From positions 1 to 64,000 of the forward strand of contig NZ_LJAK01000008.1 in NCBI RefSeq assembly GCF_001420005.1: a stretch of DNA of 64,000 bases. Reading direction: 5' to 3'. Position numbers and translations under genes: made by a program. The notes under the pieces are model-generated. The model saw only the letters and a program-made list of their open reading frames with translations, made no database searches and was not told where the DNA came from. Position 1 is the stretch's first letter; the number at the start of each line of letters is the position of its first letter. Positions 7,139-17,264 of the stretch are shown piece after piece. Source of the stretch: Loktanella sp. 3ANDIMAR09 (lineage in GTDB: Bacteria > Pseudomonadota > Alphaproteobacteria > Rhodobacterales > Rhodobacteraceae).

Positions 7139-10100
7139 CTAGCGCGGCTTTTCCACAAAGATCGTCACGGCGTTGGAGTTGAGCAGAACCGCATGGCGGG
7201 CCGGGATATTGGCCGTCACATGCCCGTTTTCAACACGCGCCGGATAGCGACAGATCATCCGGGGCGTTCCGCTGCGATGATCGACCAGTTGCCAATGGAC
7301 CATTGCACCGTCCGGTTGCGGTGTCGAAATGCGCACGACCGGAGAGCCTTCTGCGTAGCCGGTGTGGAAATCATCACGGTGTGGACCCTCGGGAAAGGGG
7401 CGGGGGTCCATGAAGCCGAAAACGCTGTCATGCTGCATGATATCCTGCCGTCCGTAAGGCCAGACGTAGGTGCGCAGAAATTCCTGGTCTGCGTAATGCG
7501 CGCTGTTGACGGGCGTCTTGAGGAAATCGGCCACAAGTGCCCGCATTGCGGGCAGTGCGCCCTTGCGAACCCCCCAAAGCCCCGCAAGCAGTAGTTCGGT
7601 ATGGGTGCCCGCATCGCGCATCGCATGAAAGGCCTGACCGCCCTCGATCCATTCCCTGACCGCGCCGGCCTCGCGTTCAGAGATCACGGAATCCGCATCG
7701 CGGAAAATCACGCGGCGCACATCAGGTGCGTCATAAGCTGCGAAACGCCACATTGGCCCGGGCCAGCGCAAGAGCGTATCGTCGACATGAATGACCTCGC
7801 CGCCTGCATCCGCAATGCGGGTCGTGACATGATCAGGCACGGTATCGTCGATGTAGAAACGGCAGACCCATCCGGGATAGATCCGGGGCTGGTCGATGCA
7901 GTTCAACACGGCTGTCTCGCAGTATTTCGACTGTCCGCCGAACAGTGAAAACGCGATGACATCGGTCTGGGCCTGTGCTGCGGGCACAGCCAATGGCAGC
8001 TTGATTGGCGCTGTTGCCGGGACAGCCGCATCGCGCAGCGTCAATGCCTTATGCCCGGCGGCGCGTGCGGCGTCCCATTGGCGCAAAGCGCCATGCGCAT
8101 GTGCGATCGTGTCGTATATCCCAAAGGTGTCCAGTCCCAGTGCAACGGCCTGTTCGGCATGATCCAGCGCGTCCTGCCACCGTTCGAGGTAAAGGGCGGC
8201 AACGGCTGCATCGGCATAGATGTTTGCGTTTCTGACGCCCTTGGCGATCAGACCGTTCGACACGGCCAGCGCCTGGGCGTAGCGCCCTGCGCGGTAGTGC
8301 TGCATGAACGACGCCTTGGCCTGATCAAGCGCGCGCGCGGTGACTTGCGCGGACTTGGCCTTGGGTTTTGCCTTCGGCCCGGGCTGCGGCACGGCTTGTT
8401 GCGTGATGGGGGAAACCTGCGCCGCAAGGTGGCCAGTCGCCAGTTGCGCAAGATAGGTCTTGGGTACGAGGTCCATGACCGTCCCGTGTTTCACCACCGC
8501 CGGATACCGGCAGATGGTGACGGGACCATCCGCGGTGGTTTCTGTGATGTGCCAAACAACGGGTGTATCGTCGGGCAAATCGGTTTTCAGGGACAGATGG
8601 GAAAGTTCCACCGCGCGGCCGACTTGAGCCGTCGCTGCATCAACCCCGTCGGGAAAGGGCCGAGCATCGCCGAACCCGAAAACGGAATCGTGCTGCGTCA
8701 GATTTGCTTGTGCGTATGGCCAGATATGGTGTTGCAGAAAATGTTGATGCGACAGCTTTGCCTGCTGTTCGCAATGGCCAACCAGATCCGTAATCCTTGG
8801 CAGCGCGCCGCGTCGCAGGCCCCACAAGCCCGTCGGCAACAGGTCGGTATGCGTCGCATGATCGCGCATGACGTGGAATGACGCATCGCCATTGATCCAG
8901 TCGCGCACGGCATCGGCTTCGCGCGTGGTCAAGAGTGCTGCCGCGTCGCGGAAAATCACCCGGTCCGCGGCCGGATCGTCTGCTGCCGCGAGGTGCCACA
9001 TGCTGCCGGGCCATCGGGCGACGGCCTCGTCCACCTGCACGACCTCTGCGCCAGCGGCGCGCAGGCGGTTCACCACGTTCTGTGGCACGGTATCGTCGCT
9101 GTAAAAGCGACAGATCCAGCCCGGATAGATCCGGGCTGCGATTTGGGCGTTCATGACTGCCGGTTCGCAATCCCTCGCCTGATCGCCGTGGATCGAAAAC
9201 GCGATGATATTGCTGCAGGCCTGCGGTGATCTGGTCTGCATCGGCAGGTTGACGGACGGCGTTCTGGTCGCGTCTGCACCCCGCACGGTCAGGGCCATTT
9301 TGCCGTATAATGCGACATGGGCCGTGATCCCCAGTTTCCCAGAGGCGTCAGCCATCAGGTCCAGTGCCGCGAGGTTTTCGGATTCCGATGCCAGCGCATG
9401 GGCTGCCATCTTGCGGGCCTCCTTGATGCGGCCCAGACGCATCAGGGCCTGTGCTGCATTGGTGTAGGTTGCGGCGGTTCTGTCGCCGGTCGCAATTTGC
9501 CGCGACGCAATGTCGAATGCGGCCTGATACCTGCCGTCTGCGAATGCCGATGCGAAATCGGTCGTGACCGGCGCTGCATCCGGGATAGACGGACGTGACA
9601 CCCGACGGGGCGCAGGCGCTGCGGTTGGCGCGTCGCGTCCCCAATCACCGGGCATCGTGTCCAAGGCACCATCGAGAAACGGCGCGAATTTGCGCCATTT
9701 TTCAGAACTGCCCTGATAAACTTCTTTGCGGACCTGCATCTTGGATGCGGTGGCGATGCGGCGTTTGGTTTCATGCGGCCGCATGCAGGCGTCCTCCCAC
9801 GGGACGCCGATATGTGCGATGGCCTGTTCCGACATCTGTAGTTGATCCGTCGTCAGGCGCTCGTAGTTTACCGTGTGGATGCGGCCGCCCAGACGATGAT
9901 GCCATTCTGCCATCAGATCCCGGTAGAGTGCGTGATAATTCAGGATATCGTCCAGATCGTAGCTGTACCCCAGACCATCGAAACCAAAGTTGTGTTTGAA
10001 ATTGGACCATGCAACGGCGCGTGGATCGCGGGTTGCGTGAAATATCACCGCCTCTGGCAGGGCTTTTGCGATCAGTGGCAAATACCTGAAGTTGCTGGGC

Positions 10101-11104
10101 ATCTTGTCGGTGACATAGGCCTTGCCGTCAGCGTGGCTGGCCGCTGCGCGCAAATAGCTTTTGCGAAAGATCGCAAGCGCGCGCGGCGTGATGGCCTTGC
10201 GGCCTGTCGAAAGCGCGTTGCCGTGGTTTGCGACATAGGGAAGTTCGCCGCCACCGCTGATCTGCGAATGGCTGGCCAGTATCTGTTCGAACAACGTGGT
10301 GCCTGACCGTGGCATGCCCACGATGAACACAGGGACCGGCATTGAACCGATCGGAACAGGGTCGAATTCGGTATCCATGATCGCGTCTGCCGTGCGGCGC
10401 AGGCTGTCGAAATGTCGGATGTCGTCCTCGAACCTGTAACCGATCAATTTCCGCCGGGTGGCGTTCCCGCTCTTGAGCTGCGACACGGTTTCCGCCGCCA
10501 TGTCTGCATTTTCATAGGCGCCCGCGAGGCAGAAATGTATTTTGGTCCGATTTTCGAGGCTGATATCGCTGCGTGTCACGGCTTGTTGCAGGTATTTGAT
10601 CTGAGGATCGTCCAGCGTCAGCTTCTTGACCTGACCAAGCGCTGTATAGCTGGGCAGGTAGTCGGGTTTGAGCCGGATCGCCGTTTCAAAATGGGTCGCC
10701 GCAGGGATCATCTGATCCGTTTCGCGGTAGCAGATTCCGAGGTTGTAGTGAGCATAGGCATTGTCAGGCCGGATGGCGGTGCTTTTTTCGAGATGAGTCA
10801 AAGCATCCTCGTAACGCCCGGCCTGCATCAGCGATGTGGCCATGTTATAGTGGGCGTCCGGGTCGTTGGGCTTGATCGCAATCCATTTCGCAAATGCCTC
10901 GAGGGCGCGGTCGGTCTGTTTCAACTCGTGGCAGGCAGAGCCCAGAATGTTCCAGACCAGCGTCGATCCGGGCAGTTGTTTGACCAGACTTTCGGCACCA
11001 TCGCGTGCCGCATCAAATCGTCCCGCACGAAACAGCCCGAGAATGTTATCGATCTCGGCTTGGTTGGATTTGCTGATCGCTCTGGTCTGCTTGCGAATGG
11101 TCAT
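7139..11104 (-). CDS. TPR-sulfotransferase with two glycosyltransferase-like modules
   Basis: This 1321-residue protein carries N-terminal tetratricopeptide repeats (about 15-200). A sulfotransferase domain follows with the PAPS 5'-phosphosulfate loop (VGMPRSGTTLFEQ, near residue 257) and the 3'-phosphate motif (ATRDPRAVAWS). After it come two tandem units, each of TPRs plus a module of about 200 residues with conserved IYPGW, CRFY, DDTVP, MW and QHDSVFGF. The second module has the DxD-type RDADS (near residue 1134). The first has RDAAA at the equivalent place (near 717). ATG 11104 (MTIRKQ) with AAGG upstream was chosen over a TTG at 11194. The cellular target is unknown. Convergence with the exporter operon makes modification of a surface product possible, but this is inference. 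Confidence 0.82.
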   Translation of the reverse strand: MTIRKQTRAISKSNQAEIDNILGLFRAGRFDAARDGAESLVKQLPGSTLVWNILGSACHELKQTDRALEAFAKWIAIKPNDPDAHYNMATSLMQAGRYEDALTHLEKSTAIRPDNAYAHYNLGICYRETDQMIPAATHFETAIRLKPDYLPSYTALGQVKKLTLDDPQIKYLQQAVTRSDISLENRTKIHFCLAGAYENADMAAETVSQLKSGNATRRKLIGYRFEDDIRHFDSLRRTADAIMDTEFDPVPIGSMPVPVFIVGMPRSGTTLFEQILASHSQISGGGELPYVANHGNALSTGRKAITPRALAIFRKSYLRAAASHADGKAYVTDKMPSNFRYLPLIAKALPEAVIFHATRDPRAVAWSNFKHNFGFDGLGYSYDLDDILNYHALYRDLMAEWHHRLGGRIHTVNYERLTTDQLQMSEQAIAHIGVPWEDACMRPHETKRRIATASKMQVRKEVYQGSSEKWRKFAPFLDGALDTMPGDWGRDAPTAAPAPRRVSRPSIPDAAPVTTDFASAFADGRYQAAFDIASRQIATGDRTAATYTNAAQALMRLGRIKEARKMAAHALASESENLAALDLMADASGKLGITAHVALYGKMALTVRGADATRTPSVNLPMQTRSPQACSNIIAFSIHGDQARDCEPAVMNAQIAARIYPGWICRFYSDDTVPQNVVNRLRAAGAEVVQVDEAVARWPGSMWHLAAADDPAADRVIFRDAAALLTTREADAVRDWINGDASFHVMRDHATHTDLLPTGLWGLRRGALPRITDLVGHCEQQAKLSHQHFLQHHIWPYAQANLTQHDSVFGFGDARPFPDGVDAATAQVGRAVELSHLSLKTDLPDDTPVVWHITETTADGPVTICRYPAVVKHGTVMDLVPKTYLAQLATGHLAAQVSPITQQAVPQPGPKAKPKAKSAQVTARALDQAKASFMQHYRAGRYAQALAVSNGLIAKGVRNANIYADAAVAALYLERWQDALDHAEQAVALGLDTFGIYDTIAHAHGALRQWDAARAAGHKALTLRDAAVPATAPIKLPLAVPAAQAQTDVIAFSLFGGQSKYCETAVLNCIDQPRIYPGWVCRFYIDDTVPDHVTTRIADAGGEVIHVDDTLLRWPGPMWRFAAYDAPDVRRVIFRDADSVISEREAGAVREWIEGGQAFHAMRDAGTHTELLLAGLWGVRKGALPAMRALVADFLKTPVNSAHYADQEFLRTYVWPYGRQDIMQHDSVFGFMDPRPFPEGPHRDDFHTGYAEGSPVVRISTPQPDGAMVHWQLVDHRSGTPRMICRYPARVENGHVTANIPARHAVLLNSNAVTIFVEKPR

Positions 11105-11425
11105 GCGTCGGCCTTGTTGGGGTGGCATGGCGACCATAGCAGCCGCACCTTTGAATGCACGCGATCGGGTGAAAATTTTGCCGCGCTGTGTCAACGCGGC
11201 CCGTACTGCCGTTCCGCCGGGCCATGTGTAGCGTCAGAACCATTCAGACGCTTGCCTGACGCGGGGCCAGACAGCACAAACGGGATGATCCGACAGTCCG
11301 ACTGGTGCACTTGTTTTCGACAGATGCAGCCGCGTTATTTGTGTATCCATGCGGAACGTCGGAATCGTGGTCACGCTGGTGACACATGGGCCGCTTAGGT
11401 CGGGGGCACTGGCAAAGGAGGCCTT

Positions 11426-12640
11426 GTGCGTAGAAATGTCGAGGCAGATCAGGCTGAGGCGGCGCACCTGCGGGGACATCCCAAAGAGGTCTTTGCCACT
11501 TTTCTAAAGCTGGGCCTGATGTCCTTTGGCGGACCGGTCGCGCATCTTGGCTATTTTCGCGATGAACTGGTAATCCGGCGCAGGTGGCTGTCTGACAGTG
11601 CCTATGCCGAACTGGTCGCTTTGTGTCAGTTTTTGCCCGGTCCGGCCTCGTCGCAGGTGGGATTCGCAATCGGTTTGCTGCGCGCGGGATGGCTGGGGGC
11701 GCTGGCTGCCTTTGCCGCGTTTACCCTGCCGTCGGCGGTGGTCCTGTTCGCCTTTGCCATGACCGCAACGCGGATTTCGGGACCCGTAGGAACAGGGGTC
11801 CTGCACGGGCTGAAGATCGTCGCGGTGGCGATCGTGGCACAGGCGGTCTGGGGGATGGCGCGAAACCTCTGCCCCGACCGCGAACGCGCGGGGATTGCGG
11901 TTTTGGCGGTGGTGATGCTGGCCATTTTGCCCGGCACATTGGGGATGATGGGGGCGATCACCGTGGGAGCGCTGGTTGGCCTTGCGCTGGGGCGGGGCAT
12001 CGGCGCGCCCCGTGGCGGTGATGTCATCGTGCCGGTGTCGCGCCGCGTCGCAGGATTTGCCCTGTTCATCTTCGTGGCGCTGCTGGTTTGCCTGCCACTG
12101 GTTGCGGGGCAAGGGCAGGGGCTGGCGATCCTGGACAGTTTCTTCCGCGCGGGGGCGTTGGTCTTTGGCGGCGGGCATGTGGTGCTGCCGCTGTTGGAAA
12201 CAGAGGTGGTGCAATCGGGTTGGATGACGCCGGACGCATTTCTTGCGGGCTATGGCGCGGCGCAGGCGGTGCCGGGGCCGCTGTTTACGATCGCAGCCTA
12301 TCTGGGAGGGGGAGCATATGGGTTGGCAGGGGCAGTCATCGCGACCTTTGCAATATTCCTGCCGGGATTTTTGGTTTTGATCGGTGTTCTGCCGTTCTGG
12401 GACCGGTTCCGGTCTATGGCCCGGGCGCAGTCGCTGATGCAGGGCGCGAATGCTGCTGTCGTCGGTATTCTGGGGGCCGCGCTATATGCGCCGGTTTTCA
12501 CCAACGCGATCAGCGACATGTCGGACTTTGCGCTGGCGCTCGTTTGTTTTGTGTTGCTGACAGCCTGGAAAGTGCCGCCCTGGGGTGTCGTGATTGTCGC
12601 GGCACTTGGCGGTGCCGGTCTGATGCTGATGCGCGGCTAG
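11426..12640 (+). CDS. chrA: Chromate transporter, long-chain CHR family
   Basis: The 404-residue inner-membrane protein belongs to the CHR family, which exports chromate and confers tolerance. Two homologous CHR halves are visible. The first contains LGLMSFGGPVAHLGYF and LCQFLPGPASSQVGF. The second contains GALVFGGGHVVLPLL and GYGAAQAVPGPLFT. About ten hydrophobic segments span the protein. GTG 11426 is supported by AAAGGAGG 5 nt upstream. It appears to be a single-gene unit, with no chrB regulator in view. Whether chromate or a related oxyanion is the natural substrate cannot be read from sequence. Confidence 0.93.
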   Translation: MRRNVEADQAEAAHLRGHPKEVFATFLKLGLMSFGGPVAHLGYFRDELVIRRRWLSDSAYAELVALCQFLPGPASSQVGFAIGLLRAGWLGALAAFAAFTLPSAVVLFAFAMTATRISGPVGTGVLHGLKIVAVAIVAQAVWGMARNLCPDRERAGIAVLAVVMLAILPGTLGMMGAITVGALVGLALGRGIGAPRGGDVIVPVSRRVAGFALFIFVALLVCLPLVAGQGQGLAILDSFFRAGALVFGGGHVVLPLLETEVVQSGWMTPDAFLAGYGAAQAVPGPLFTIAAYLGGGAYGLAGAVIATFAIFLPGFLVLIGVLPFWDRFRSMARAQSLMQGANAAVVGILGAALYAPVFTNAISDMSDFALALVCFVLLTAWKVPPWGVVIVAALGGAGLMLMRG

Positions 12641-12841: not shown

Positions 12842-13408
12842 TTGAGTAAGACGTTAAAGATCGTCGTTTCGGGCTGCATCGCCATGGTCGCGCTACTGGC
12901 CGTCGTGTTCGTCGCGCGACCCGGCGGCGCAAGCGGGCAAGCCTATGCGGCACCGGGGACCGGCGCTGTAACAGCGGATGAATTCCGCCAGGTTTCATTT
13001 CAGATTGTCCCTGAAATCCTCGCGGTCGTTTACCGCGCCTTTGCGGAAACGGATGAATCGCAGATCTACGACAGCCTGTCAGAGGTCTCGGCGCGTGACG
13101 CGCTTGAAACGCTTTATCTTGAACGGGTGGGTGCGATGGCCGGCGGCGGTCTGGAGGCTGCGGACCAGGAATTGCACGCGATGGAACTGGAAGGTCTGAC
13201 ATCACGTCAGGACGGCGAGGCATTTGACATGAACGTCACATGGCGGGTGGTCGGCACGGTCGGTCACGCCACCCACCTCCATGTGCGTGGCAACACCTAT
13301 TCCGCCAATCTGATGATCGAACCCGTGGATGGCGCCTGGCGCATGACCAGTTTCGAGCTGACCGACGTGGATCGCACCGATGCCGGTGAAATGGTGGCTG
13401 CGGAATGA
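12842..13408 (+). CDS. Membrane-anchored periplasmic protein with HxxHxH motif
   Basis: The 188-residue product has one N-terminal signal/anchor helix (about 7-26), an Ala-rich linker and a periplasmic domain. The most striking feature is a histidine motif near the C-terminus, GHATHLHVR (His142, His145, His147), followed by a beta-like segment with W-R near its end. I do not recognise a named family. The motif and its place as first gene of a metal-uptake-like operon suggest metal handling. The start is TTG 12842 with AGGACAGGAA immediately upstream. ATG of the next gene overlaps its stop (ATGA at 13405-13408), so the two are coupled. Confidence 0.7.
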   Translation: MSKTLKIVVSGCIAMVALLAVVFVARPGGASGQAYAAPGTGAVTADEFRQVSFQIVPEILAVVYRAFAETDESQIYDSLSEVSARDALETLYLERVGAMAGGGLEAADQELHAMELEGLTSRQDGEAFDMNVTWRVVGTVGHATHLHVRGNTYSANLMIEPVDGAWRMTSFELTDVDRTDAGEMVAAE

Positions 13409-14079
13409 TTGCAATCAACGATCTCTCGTTTGCCTATCCGGACAGTGATTTCCGGCTGACCATCCCCAGCCTGGTGCTGGAGCCGGGCGAAAAGGTCGCT
13501 GTGGTCGGCCCCAGCGGGACTGGCAAGACGACGCTGCTGAACCTGATCGCTGGCATTACCGTGCCGCAATCTGGCACGGTGCGGCTGGGCGACGTCACCG
13601 TGTCGAACATGGGGGATGCCGCCCGCCGGAGCCTGCGGGCCGCCCGCATCGGTTTCGTGTTTCAGGATTTTGCGCTGCTGGAATATCTGACCGCACGGGA
13701 AAACATCCTGTTTCCCTACCGTATCGCGGCCGGTGCGAAAATCGATGACGCCGCGCGGACCCGTGCTGTTCAACTGGCGCAGTCATGCGGGCTGGACGGC
13801 AAGCTGGACCGCCGACCCGGCGCATTGAGCCAGGGCGAACAGCAGCGCGTCGCCCTGTGCCGGTCGCTGATCATGAAGCCGGACCTGGTGCTGGCGGACG
13901 AAGCGACGGGCAATCTGGATCCCGCGAATAAGGTTGCCATCCTTGACCTGCTGTTTGCGCGCACCTCCGAACAAGGTGCCACATTGCTGGCTGTGACCCA
14001 TGATCACGAATTGCTGCCGCGGTTCGACCGCGTCATCGATTTTGCGACATTCCGCGATACAGGGGAACATGCCGCATGA
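13405..14079 (+). CDS. LolD/MacB-type ABC transporter ATP-binding protein
   Basis: The 224-residue ATPase has Walker A (GPSGTGKTT), Q-loop (FVFQDFALLEYLT), signature (LSQGEQQRV), Walker B (LVLADEATGNLD) and the switch His (AVTHDHE). The LSxGEQQRV signature and the ADEATGNLD sequence are typical of the LolD/MacB/FtsE branch, whose partners are FtsX-type permeases rather than ordinary importers. It overlaps the genes on both sides by 4 nt (ATGA), placing it firmly in an operon with the His-motif protein before it and the FtsX-type permease after it. Confidence 0.9.
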   Translation: MIAINDLSFAYPDSDFRLTIPSLVLEPGEKVAVVGPSGTGKTTLLNLIAGITVPQSGTVRLGDVTVSNMGDAARRSLRAARIGFVFQDFALLEYLTARENILFPYRIAAGAKIDDAARTRAVQLAQSCGLDGKLDRRPGALSQGEQQRVALCRSLIMKPDLVLADEATGNLDPANKVAILDLLFARTSEQGATLLAVTHDHELLPRFDRVIDFATFRDTGEHAA

Positions 14080-15233
14080 ACGCGTTTTTTCTGGCGATTT
14101 CCTATCTGCGGTTTCATTGGGCACGCTCGCTTGTCTTGATCGTGGTGACCGCGCTGATTCTGTCCGTGCCGATCATCAGTCAGGTGTTGCTGAACGGGTC
14201 GCAGACCGCATTGACCGAGAGGGCAGAGGCGACACCGCTGGTTTTGGGTAGTCGGGGCAGCCAGCTCGATCTGGCGATGAATGCGCTGTATTTTTCCGAC
14301 GACCGCGCAAACCCTGTGACCATGGCGGATGCCGATGCAATCTGGGATTCGGGGCTGGGTCTGCCGATCCCGTTGAACACGGCATTTGAAACCAATGGCG
14401 CGCGGATCATCGGCACCTCGGTCGAATATTTCGAGTTCAGGGGCCTGAATGTCGCGCAAGGCCGCCAGATCGCCCTGCTGGGAGAGGCCGTTTTGGGTGC
14501 ATCCGTGGCCGAACGTCTGGGGCTGGCCCCCGGCGACACGGTCGTGTCGGCCCCGCAGAACCTGTTCGATCTGGATGGTGTCTACCCGCTGGAGCTGAAC
14601 ATCGTGGGTGTTCTCGCACCGACCGGCACCCCCGATGACGAAGCCGTTTTTGTCGATATCAAGACGTCGTGGGTGATCGCCGGGATCGGACACGGCCACG
14701 ACGGCGTGCTGGCCGAGGGAGCGACCTCTGGCGATATCGTCGCCAACGCCGCGATCGTCGAATTCAACCGCATTACCGACGACAATATCGACAGTTTTCA
14801 TTTTCACGGCGATCCTGCGGATTATCCGGTGTCGGCGGTCGTGCTGGTTCCCAATGACGCCCGCGCCGCAACCATGCTGCGGGGGCGCTATCTGGATGCG
14901 GAAAATCCCGTTCAGATCATCGTCCCGCGTGACGTGATCGGCGAACTGGTCGGGCGCATTTTTCGGATCAAATCGCTGCTGGATGCGGTGACACTGATTG
15001 TCGGCGGCGCGGCCTTGGCGGCCGTGGGTCTGGCGATTTTCCTCAGCTACCGATTGCGCGCGCGCGAAATGCAGACCGCGTTCAAGATCGGTGCCCGCAA
15101 AAGCATGATCCTGCAATTTATCGGGGCCGAGACCATTCTAATTCTATGTATTGCGGGCGTCATCGCCATCGCACTGACGTTCGCCGTTCAGACAAACGGC
15201 AGCACCATCGTCGCCTGGTTGTTGGCGACCTGA
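14076..15233 (+). CDS. FtsX/MacB-like ABC transporter permease
   Basis: The 385-residue permease has the FtsX layout: one N-terminal membrane helix (about 15-35), a large periplasmic domain of about 240 residues, then two or three C-terminal helices starting near residue 305 (LIVGGAALAAVGLAIFLS and ILQFIGAETILIL). Such permeases usually act by mechanotransmission, as in MacB or Lol, not by classic substrate import. Here the permease is followed by metal-binding-like exported proteins, a combination reminiscent of the zinc-regulated Zrg transporter described in Vibrio cholerae. The substrate is not evident from sequence. It is translationally coupled to the ATPase gene. Confidence 0.88.
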   Translation: MNAFFLAISYLRFHWARSLVLIVVTALILSVPIISQVLLNGSQTALTERAEATPLVLGSRGSQLDLAMNALYFSDDRANPVTMADADAIWDSGLGLPIPLNTAFETNGARIIGTSVEYFEFRGLNVAQGRQIALLGEAVLGASVAERLGLAPGDTVVSAPQNLFDLDGVYPLELNIVGVLAPTGTPDDEAVFVDIKTSWVIAGIGHGHDGVLAEGATSGDIVANAAIVEFNRITDDNIDSFHFHGDPADYPVSAVVLVPNDARAATMLRGRYLDAENPVQIIVPRDVIGELVGRIFRIKSLLDAVTLIVGGAALAAVGLAIFLSYRLRAREMQTAFKIGARKSMILQFIGAETILILCIAGVIAIALTFAVQTNGSTIVAWLLAT

Positions 15234-15263
15234 AACCGAACAAGAAAACGGGAGTTTTGAGTA

Positions 15264-16031
15264 ATGAAAAAGACATTCGCAGCGACAGTGGCGCTGACCG
15301 CACTCAGCGGGACGACGGCACTGGCGCACTACGGGATGATTATCCCGAACGATCCGATGATCAGCCAAGAGGACGGCCGGTCCGTGCAGCTGGAAATGTC
15401 GTTTTCGCACCCGTTCGAATTGTTGGGCATGGAACTGGTCGAACCCGTCTCCTTTACGGTGACCCATGCCGGTGAAACGACCGATCTGCTGGGTGATCTG
15501 ACGGCAGCACAGATCATGGGTCAGCCCGGCTATACCCTTGATTATCCGCTGGAACGCCCCGGCACCTATGTCTTTGCGATGGAACCGCAGCCCTATTGGG
15601 AACCGGCCGAGGACAGCTATATCGTCCATTACACGAAAACCTACGTCAGTGCCTTCGATGATGACGAAGGCTGGGACACCGAACTGGGTCTGCGCACCGA
15701 AATCGTGCCACTCAGCAAACCCTTTGGCCTGTGGGAAGGCAACGTGTTCCAGGGCACCGTCATGCTGGAAGGTGAGCCCGTCCCTTATGCCGAGGTTGAG
15801 GTCGAATACTACAACGAAGACGGTGAGGCATCCGTCCCCAGCGAGTTGATGATCACGCAAACGGTCAAGGCCGACGCCAACGGTGTATTCACCTATGCGG
15901 CGCCGACGGACGGTTGGTGGGGCTTTGCCGCGCTGAACACCGCACCGGAAACCATGGCCTTTGAGGGCGAAGAGAAAGCCGTCGAACTGGGTGCCGTAAT
16001 CTGGGTCGAATTCGAAGAATGGGACGACTGA
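15264..16031 (+). CDS. DUF4198/NikK-like exported metal-uptake protein
   Basis: The 255-residue protein is secreted to the periplasm by a Sec signal peptide ending ALA (residues 19-21), so the mature protein would start with His22. It belongs to the DUF4198 group, related to NikK-type components found beside nickel/cobalt transporters. Recognisable segments are [18 protein letters not shown] and the following beta-sandwich with [16 protein letters not shown] upstream of ATG 15264 is a weak ribosome site. Its stop overlaps the next ATG (TGATG), so the two exported proteins are made together. The metal (Zn, Ni or Co) cannot be decided from sequence. Confidence 0.8.
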
Positions 16032-16366
16032 TGCGCCGTTTGTTCGCAGCACTGGCGGTGGTTGCTTTTGCAACCGCCGCACAGGCCCATAACCTGAACG
16101 TATTCGCATTCGTCGAGGACGGAACGGTCGTTGTCGAAACCAAGTTTTCGACCGGCAAGATCCCGGTATCCGGCGAGGTGCGCGTTCTGAACGCCGCATC
16201 AGAGGTAGTTCTGACATTGCCGTTGCAAGAAGACGGGACGGTCCGGTTTCCGTTGGATCCTGATGCCGCGTCGGGTGGACTGACCATCGAAGTCATGACC
16301 GGCGAAGGTCACGACGATTACTGGATACTGACGCCAGAAGACATCGCAAACGGATCCGAAAGCTGA
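16031..16366 (+). CDS. Small exported NikL-like protein
   Basis: The 111-residue product has a signal peptide ending AQA (residues 17-19), giving a mature N-terminal His20 and then NLNVFAFVE. This start, the VVVETKFSTGKIPVSGEV strand pattern and the short beta-sandwich resemble the N-terminal domain of NikL-type components of nickel transport systems. It is coupled to the DUF4198 gene by a TGATG overlap and followed after 4 nt by the ZnuA-like gene. The family match is from memory of the motif, so the label NikL-like is moderate in certainty. Signal peptide and operon position are clear. Confidence 0.72.
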   Translation: MRRLFAALAVVAFATAAQAHNLNVFAFVEDGTVVVETKFSTGKIPVSGEVRVLNAASEVVLTLPLQEDGTVRFPLDPDAASGGLTIEVMTGEGHDDYWILTPEDIANGSES

Positions 16367-16370
16367 CCCT

Positions 16371-17264
16371 ATGAACCTGACCCGTCGTGCCGCGCTGGCC
16401 TTGATCATATCGACCGCAGCCCTGCCTGTCGCAGCGCAGGATCGTCCGGTCGTCGCAACCGACAACTATCCGCTGGCCTATTTTGCGGAACGCCTTGGCG
16501 GGGAGGGCGTGGACGTGCTGTTCACGGTGCCCGGCGATGTTGATCCGTCGTTCTGGCGGCCGGGAATCGCGGATATCACCGCTATTCAGGCGGCGGATGT
16601 CATCGCGCTGAACGGGGCGGGTTTTTCCACCTGGCCGACCAAGGCCTCGCTGCCGCGATCACGCACCTTCGATACCACGGCCGGTCTGTCTGATCGTCTG
16701 ATCCAGACCGATACGGTGACGCATTCGCACGGGGACGATGGCGAACATTCGCACGAGGCGACGGCAAACTATGTCTGGCTCGATTTCGAACTGGCGCAAC
16801 AGCAGGCGGCGGCTATTGCCGAGGCGATGACGCGACAGATGCCGGACCTGGCCGAGACGATCACGTCCAGCCGTGACGGCCTGATGGGGGACCTGGCGGC
16901 GCTTGATGCACAAGGACGTGCAATCGGCGACATGGCGGATCTGCCGCCCGTCGTCACGTCACATCCCCGCTATCAATATCTTGGCGCGGCCTATGGGCTG
17001 GATATCTCGGCGCTGGAATGGGATGCGAACATGGACCCGACCCCGGATCAATGGGCAGCACTCGAGGCGCTCGTGGCGCAGACGGGCGCAAAGGTGTTCG
17101 TCTGGGAAGCAGAACCAAGCCCTGGCGCGCGTGCGCGCATGGCAGAGATCGGTCTGACGGATGTCGTATTCCCACCACTGGCCAATCGACCCGCCGCTGG
17201 CGATTTCGTGTCCGTCATGCAGGCGTCGCTGACGACACTGTCCGAGGCGTTTGACGCGCTTTGA
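16371..17264 (+). CDS. ZnuA-like metal-binding periplasmic protein, altered ligand set
   Basis: The 297-residue product has a signal peptide (cleavage near AAQ/DRP, about residue 23) and the fold order of cluster A-I metal-binding proteins. A His-rich loop (His118, 120, 126, 128) is typical of zinc binders. The loop normally reading DPHxYEP here reads DVDPSFWRP (residues 56-64), and the usual HxWLD segment reads NYVWLD (Tyr134), so two canonical His ligands are absent. The third, in SHPRYQYLG (His198), is kept. No ZnuB or ZnuC gene lies nearby. The only ABC partner in the operon is the FtsX/LolD pair. Confidence 0.82.
   Translation: MNLTRRAALALIISTAALPVAAQDRPVVATDNYPLAYFAERLGGEGVDVLFTVPGDVDPSFWRPGIADITAIQAADVIALNGAGFSTWPTKASLPRSRTFDTTAGLSDRLIQTDTVTHSHGDDGEHSHEATANYVWLDFELAQQQAAAIAEAMTRQMPDLAETITSSRDGLMGDLAALDAQGRAIGDMADLPPVVTSHPRYQYLGAAYGLDISALEWDANMDPTPDQWAALEALVAQTGAKVFVWEAEPSPGARARMAEIGLTDVVFPPLANRPAAGDFVSVMQASLTTLSEAFDAL

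Follow-up and report, generated by a model that had tools for sequence, protein, structure and literature searches.

What is the role of a gene set that joins an FtsX/MacB-type ATP-binding cassette (ABC) unit to relatives of periplasmic metal carriers? The part played by such units in metal acquisition is disputed: the Zrg system of Vibrio has been described as a zinc importer, whereas a relative in Pseudomonas has been argued to export pyochelin-cobalt. We addressed this question with a 64,000-nucleotide stretch of Loktanella sp. 3ANDIMAR09 (NZ_LJAK01000008.1, assembly GCF_001420005.1; hereafter the window), in which a six-gene cassette at 12842-17264 couples an FtsX/MacB-type unit to a recognisable metal-carrier relative. 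We conclude that this gene set is a conserved variant of the type VII ABC metal systems. Its most surprising feature, new here, is a three-helix permease with His motifs of its own.

Organization of the cassette

The cassette lies in a 3.67 Mb genome of Rhodobacterales type. Its six genes are on the plus strand, and neighbouring genes overlap or sit at most 30 bases apart. A preliminary description, made from the sequence of the window, had reported these genes, and their coordinates, strand and tight packing were all confirmed. The genes and the codons of the His motifs, the latter located by alignment, are listed below.

12842..13408, plus strand: gene 1, membrane-anchored NTF2-like His protein (188 residues, TTG start, one N-terminal helix followed by the domain)
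13265..13282, plus strand: HxxHxH codons (H142..H147) of the NTF2-like protein
13405..14079, plus strand: gene 2, LolD/FtsE-like ABC ATPase (224 residues)
14076..15233, plus strand: gene 3, FtsX/MacB-type permease (385 residues; transmembrane helix TM1, periplasmic domain, TM2 and TM3, no TM4)
14691..14699, plus strand: HGH motif codons (H206-G207-H208), periplasmic domain of the permease
14799..14807, plus strand: HxH motif codons (H242, H244) of the permease
15264..16031, plus strand: gene 4, NikK-like exported DUF4198 protein (255 residues)
16019..16366, plus strand: gene 5, NikL-like short exported protein (115 residues)
16371..17264, plus strand: gene 6, ZnuA-like periplasmic protein of the cluster A-I type with an altered metal site (297 residues)
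16722..16754, plus strand: THSHGxxGxHSH loop codons (H118, H120, H126, H128) of the ZnuA-like protein

Pfam and NCBIfam agreed with the earlier assignment of the ATPase, the FtsX-type permease and the NikK-like and ZnuA-like proteins. The Pfam scores were 108.5 bits for the ATPase (ABC_tran, cut-off 25), 37.6 bits for the permease (MacB_PCD, cut-off 27), 197.9 bits for the fourth protein (DUF4198, PF10670, cut-off 34) and 130.6 bits for the sixth (ZnuA, PF01297, cut-off 29). In the same database the first protein belonged to no family and the fifth had no match above cut-off. The NikL-like identity proposed for the fifth protein was upheld in part: it matched the NCBIfam NikL model NF058648 at 6e-20, but its 71.9 bits fell under the cut-off of 100. 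The ATPase scored 164.4 bits against the NCBIfam LolD equivalog, well under the cut-off of 307.75, and matched FtsE likewise far under cut-off; its Walker A, LSQGEQQR, Walker B and VTHDH motifs were intact.

Conservation and distribution

A permease-based pattern scan of the genome collection yielded 85 stretches matching a pattern, which gave 44 loci. Full-length permease matches numbered 15 in 149 genomes in the family-level search and 25 in 394 genomes in a larger family draw that includes those 15 (one of the 25, G573, borders the end of its contig and is absent from the fetched loci). At the phylum level, 2 of 299 genomes were positive, the window's own included. These frequencies indicated that the system is sporadic.

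Once exact duplicates had been removed, 65 distinct permease-bearing loci remained, 41 of Rhodobacterales type (window included) and 24 others. Among the 41, near kin were kept (e.g., three Mameliella) and L042 is labelled only Alphaproteobacteria; close kin also occur among the 24 (three Christiangramia and several near-identical planctomycete-type metagenome-assembled genomes). Two plasmid loci, L124 of Paracoccus liaowanqingii and L125 of Methylomagnum, stand outside this count, as do L033 (6.2 kb contig) and L034 (16.5 kb), in which no permease was found. Since L034 gave a weak NTF2-like match (E 3.5e-4), the NTF2-like domain may occur without the rest of the cassette.

In 38 of the 41 Rhodobacterales-type loci the six genes were all found close to the permease and on a single strand, and their co-occurrence is therefore more than chance. 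The three exceptions were L044, where the contig ends before the ZnuA-like gene; L114, whose permease and ATPase are broken and in which NikK was not matched; and L031, which comes from the window's own family and lacks NikK and NikL. The gene order of the window was kept in the Rhodobacterales-type loci listed, and the permease of the closest named locus (L035, Loktanella sp. DSM 29012) was 99% identical to that of the window. Plasmid locus L124 has another order, with the ZnuA-like gene ahead of NikK and NikL.

The remaining 24 loci (L055-L078) either carry no label or belong to Bacteroidota, Planctomycetota, Gemmatimonadota, Verrucomicrobiota, Myxococcota, Thermodesulfobacteriota and Gammaproteobacteria. 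A four-part core, consisting of the anchored NTF2-like His domain, the LolD/FtsE-like ATPase, the FtsX-type permease and the ZnuA-like protein, recurred in Bacteroidota, Planctomycetota, Gemmatimonadota, Myxococcota and Gammaproteobacteria. The ZnuA-like gene stood beside the permease in 22 of the 24 loci, two of them cut by contig ends (L058, L060), and was not found in L068 (4.2 kb contig) and L072. The NTF2-like domain was present in 19 of the 24, on the opposite strand in L064 and L066; the five loci without it are contigs of at most 7.3 kb, so that only three core parts were seen in Thermodesulfobacteriota. Neither NikK nor NikL was found in any of the 24. Hence, of the six-gene system proposed in the preliminary description, the complete set is the rule in Rhodobacterales and the ZnuA-like gene is usual beyond them, but NikK and NikL are not part of the general system. 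The observation that the description itself had named as a refutation, clusters that as a rule lack the NikK, NikL and ZnuA genes, was thus borne out in part.

The permease

The permease was predicted to share the fold of LolE, HrtB, FtsX and MacB when its AlphaFold2 model (mean predicted local distance difference test score 85.4) was compared by VIA-align, with large root-mean-square deviations over whole chains. Beyond the periplasmic domain there are only two hydrophobic segments. In all 33 aligned permeases (the window and 32 of the 44 loci), 30-37 residues follow the invariant E352, whereas all eight Zrg permeases have 79 residues at the same point and at least one further hydrophobic segment. 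The FtsX C-terminal domain PF02687, which scored above cut-off in the two Zrg permeases scanned, was not found in the window permease by the Pfam scan. The permeases end at genuine stop codons, and in the window the next gene begins 30 bases on. By sequence and model, the permease thus stops before TM4 and has three membrane helices.

H206-G207-H208, H242 and H244 were invariant in the 33 permeases. In the AlphaFold2 model the HGH motif flanks a low-confidence loop (210-227). Both motifs were absent from the eight Zrg permeases, from the genome's own LolC-type protein and from two YbbP-type proteins.

Of seven loci fetched by a ZrgA match, L101 showed no such permease and was excluded from the Zrg comparison; L105 came from the permease search, and its ZrgA-like neighbour was found afterwards. 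The family permease profile gave 98-113 bits for the eight Zrg permeases and about 15-25 bits for the chains of FtsX, YbbP, YtrF, LolE and MacB in the PDB. By sequence score, Zrg permeases are accordingly among the closest relatives of the cassette permease tested, in line with the earlier naming of Zrg as the near analogue. In the tree, the cassette permeases formed one clade (95/97) and the Zrg permeases another (94/99); the deeper order is unsure because the outgroup branches are long. A further FtsX-type relative, which at the place of the His motifs has its own His-rich stretch, HGLANGHAPAAAHDDHETHAHAQDED, was found in the window's own family (L104, G042:C11, 2796-4214). It scored 106.5 bits against the same profile, fell outside both clades and is possibly a third metal-linked type.

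The ZnuA-like protein

At three ligand positions, the ZnuA of the window's genome and two other canonical ZnuA proteins have His, and we take these to be the usual ZnuA ligands. The window protein has S60, Y134 and H198 there, and in the cassette family His was found at the three positions in 0, 7 and 28 of 33 rows, respectively. An invariant P59-x2-W62-x-P64 replaces the first canonical His. The THSHGxxGxHSH loop was conserved, with H118 and H120 in 33/33 and H126 and H128 in 30/33 rows. The corresponding loop of canonical zinc proteins is reported to be variable and unstructured (PMC9820375). The ligand loss and the conserved loop indicated that the protein, which may bind metal or a metal complex, is a ZnuA relative with a changed site. 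Of the binder proposed earlier, family membership therefore held and the canonical ligands did not.

The NTF2-like protein and exchange of parts

The first protein has a predicted helix-then-sheet domain of NTF2-like fold, for which a sequence search of the PDB returned three weak matches to designed proteins (E 0.08 or worse). Its motif H142-x2-H145-x-H147-x-R149-x-N151 was invariant in 33/33 rows. Outside Rhodobacterales, the domain sits at the C-terminal end of a longer protein whose N-terminal region is large. These long proteins have 402-756 residues (nine complete frames starting with ATG, GTG or TTG, plus L060; the masked frame of L078 was excluded) and one to three hydrophobic segments, except for the Christiangramia protein listed, which has 14. 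In Rhodobacterales the protein is short and NikK and NikL are present; in L031 the long form occurs and both are missing. This gene content suggests that NikK and NikL stand in for the large N-terminal region of the long protein.

With cleavage sites placed by eye, the predicted mature NikK-like protein starts with His (codon 15327-15329), as does the NikL-like protein (AQA|HNLNVFAF, codon 16088-16090). The N-terminal motifs AHYGMIIP (NikK) and AHxLxVFA (NikL) were kept in more than 95% of the 32 aligned rows. No membrane segment was detected in the NikL-like protein by hydropathy. DUF4198 is no proof of nickel: in Caulobacter, two paralogues are under the control of iron and Fur (PMC3751524), and one appears in a zur-mutant table (PMC4176598). 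A second DUF4198 gene lies away from the cassette in the window's genome (G000:C15:54106-54771). On L124 (4016-9116) the genes are rearranged, with an extra, different DUF4198 gene followed by the NTF2-like, ATPase, permease, ZnuA-like, NikK and NikL genes. The extra gene lies immediately next to gspD, which belongs to a type II secretion locus, and relatives of the extra gene also adjoin the cassettes of L028 and L032.

Neighbouring metal genes and candidate metals

In flanks of a few kb, metal-related neighbours were found for 6 of the 41 Rhodobacterales-type loci. In L041 the cassette directly follows znuA, within a zur-znuCB/znuA locus that has a Zur-like box, and in L022 zur-znu lies 2.1-2.2 kb downstream of the cassette. 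L040 has a zrg operon (ZrgA 173 bits, two DUF3299) that runs divergently from the cassette, and Zur-like boxes lie between the two. In L027, nikR (1027-1500; NF002815, 124 vs 83 bits) stands 91 bases upstream of the six-gene cassette on the same strand and is likely its regulator. L020 has an ABC-3 permease neighbour (Pfam) and a Fur-like box, and L111 a ZnuBC-like pair 5.6 kb off (BLAST). A rough post hoc estimate put the chance that two of 39 loci have znu at a distance of about 7 kb or less at 0.014. Outside these 41 loci, the cassette of the Methylomagnum plasmid has CopC to one side, and the opposite flank holds a TonB receptor and nikR.

The Zur-like boxes were searched by pattern, and NikR-like sites with one exact E. 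coli-type pattern. The znu locus of the window's genome gave a Zur-like box with zero mismatches.

Urease, a nickel enzyme, was present at the family cut-off in all 25 cassette genomes and in 289 of 369 others (Fisher one-sided p = 0.003). At E 0.001 the latter count was 296/369 (p = 0.005), and among genomes at least 90% complete the counts were 23/23 and 270/324 (p = 0.018). Dependence on NikM/CbiM was considered and rejected, as PF01891 occurred in 6/15 cassette genomes and 49/134 others, with no association. Altogether, zinc and nickel are about equally supported as the metal.

Flanking genes and genome background

The preliminary description had noted that no ZnuBC or NikMNQO partner is present. 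This was correct for the cassette, but elsewhere the genome has znuA, zur, znuC and znuB, and another contig carries a CbiM-like gene beside cobW- and cobN-like genes (the latter two identified by eye). Upstream of the cassette, at 11426-12640 on the same strand and 201 bases away, lies a ChrA-type chromate transporter gene (TIGR00937, 337.9 bits), which is not among the clusters common to at least four loci. A 1351-residue frame on the minus strand (7139-11194) appeared by eye to encode tetratricopeptide-repeat and sulfotransferase-like parts followed by two similar repeats.

When the regions preceding the first gene were compared by eye in 29 loci, no shared perfect palindrome was found, and promoter and terminator scans gave counts near those of shuffles. 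Flank clusters recurred only among close kin, as antisense frames, or, in five loci, as members of the common short-chain dehydrogenase family. Among the 78 of 98 frames scanned by Pfam in loci not of Rhodobacterales type (L031 included), no family had more than three members. Matches to gspD, G, I or N were absent from the fetched loci other than L124.

Proposed mechanism and alternatives

We consider it somewhat more probable than an even chance that the cassette is an ATP-driven type VII (mechanotransmission) ABC machine for acquiring a scarce divalent transition metal, zinc or nickel. Periplasmic metal would be captured by the ZnuA-like protein together with the NikK-like and NikL-like exported proteins, and the HGH and HxH motifs of the permease, together with the His motifs of the NTF2-like protein, would be where metal docks and is handed over. 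The LolD/FtsE-like protein, on binding and hydrolysing ATP, would then move the permease domain and so force metal release or transfer. The metal might finally enter the cytoplasm via this complex, with the anchored partner perhaps supplying the missing helix, or via another importer. We infer metal binding by the His residues, the identity of the metal, the direction of transfer and the route of entry into the cytoplasm; as the mechanism, mechanical coupling between periplasmic proteins appears most likely. In favour of this reading count the complete gene set in most Rhodobacterales-type loci and the ZnuA-like gene beside the permease in most others, the invariant His residues in three proteins across phyla, the absence of the permease motifs from Zrg, LolC-type and YbbP-type proteins, the metal-gene neighbours and the urease association.

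Several observations weigh against metal acquisition. A three-helix FtsX-type permease offers no known import path. For 35 of the 41 Rhodobacterales-type loci the fetched flanks held neither znu, zrg and nikR nor ABC-3 genes, and in the 103 of 224 frames scanned by Pfam near Rhodobacterales-type loci other than L031, no family had more than two matches. The window copy showed no Zur-like, NikR-like or Rfam signal; the Zur-box search upstream of 12842 that had been suggested earlier found none. The hints are split across metals (Zur, NikR and the Fur-like box in L020), and the urease association takes no account of kinship and is weaker when only the more complete genomes are counted. Three of the five Planctomycetota-type ZnuA-like rows listed lack the third canonical His and two loop His. 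Finally, the Zrg-type genes PA4063-PA4066 were argued to encode a pyochelin-cobalt exporter (PMC11481552).

The last argument, with the MacB/LolC fold of the permease, is also what speaks for an efflux role, in which a MacB-like unit would expel either a metallophore or surplus metal that the periplasmic proteins had captured. Against it, no MacA- or TolC-type adaptor is among the six proteins, and the ZnuA-like protein and the uptake-type genes near some loci suit scarcity better than excess; we regard export as very improbable. The loss of TM4 would also fit a periplasmic metal-insertion machine, whose ABC unit would load periplasmic or secreted metalloproteins with no import, on the model of NosDFY for nitrous oxide reductase. 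FtsX-type units are known for mechanical work rather than transport, and in P. liaowanqingii such an operon lies directly beside the gspD gene of a type II secretion locus. However, that link was seen in one locus only, no recurrent client enzyme stood beside the cassette in the parts of the neighbouring frames scanned, and the zur-znu, zrg and nikR neighbours favour acquisition, which makes insertion unlikely in our judgement. The cassette could also be an ordinary Zrg-type zinc importer with swapped periplasmic parts and merely cosmetic differences, as few of the relatives tested come nearer than the Zrg permeases and Zrg was reported to aid zinc uptake with a MacB-like permease (PMC9820375). 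We give this still less credence than insertion, since the permeases form separate clades and differ in the HGH/HxH motifs and TM4 loss. Moreover, L040 holds both systems side by side, so that one does not simply replace the other.

More tentatively, and with doubt prevailing, the cassette might represent a new class of ABC machine. Its three-helix FtsX-type permease, unable to form the usual membrane unit alone, would use ATP to relay metal between periplasmic proteins via its own His motifs, and the anchored NTF2-like protein would complete the membrane part. The periplasmic collectors would be interchangeable: NikK plus NikL in Rhodobacterales, and a large region fused to the NTF2-like domain elsewhere. 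The invariant His residues in the permease itself make the acquisition question testable by point mutation, and the unusual shortness of the permease makes it well suited to examining how machines of this kind operate. The cassette also offers a natural example of part replacement across phyla.

Comparison with known systems

The six-gene set was not found described in the literature searched, most subscription journals being outside its coverage. Of the known systems, Zrg (zrgABCDE of Vibrio cholerae and PA4063-PA4066 of Pseudomonas aeruginosa) likewise combines a separate ATPase, an FtsX/MacB-type permease and one or more periplasmic metal-type proteins, and supports zinc uptake with a four-helix MacB-like permease according to the same report (PMC9820375). 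In contrast, neither ZrgA (PF10986) nor DUF3299 is among the six cassette proteins, which include ZnuA-, NikK-, NikL- and NTF2-like proteins instead, and ZrgA had no match in the window's genome. The Zrg permease has four helices and lacks HGH/HxH, whereas that of the cassette has three and both motifs; the window copy also lacks a Zur-like box. The two systems occur together, divergently, in L040.

The ZnuABC and cluster A-I importers share with the cassette a ZnuA-like protein above the Pfam cut-off, but the cassette has no ABC-3 permease, and its family has lost canonical His 1 and kept His 2 in only 7/33 rows. MacB, LolCDE, FtsEX and HrtBA (type VII ABC) resemble it in permease fold, MacB_PCD domain and ATPase type; the cassette differs in the missing TM4, the periplasmic metal-type partners and an ATPase below the LolD and FtsE cut-offs. 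The energy-coupling factor transporter NikKMLQO also has NikK (DUF4198) and NikL in adjacent genes, but the cassette lacks NikM, NikQ and NikO. Its NikL-like protein is short, under the NCBIfam cut-off and without a membrane segment, whereas NikL is described as an integral membrane protein (PMC2868824). A 2009 survey had listed orphan NikK/NikL without NikMQO, whose neighbourhoods gave no clue (PMC2667541). For proteins of this kind, left unexplained there, the cassette may supply a gene context, that of an FtsX-type ABC unit.

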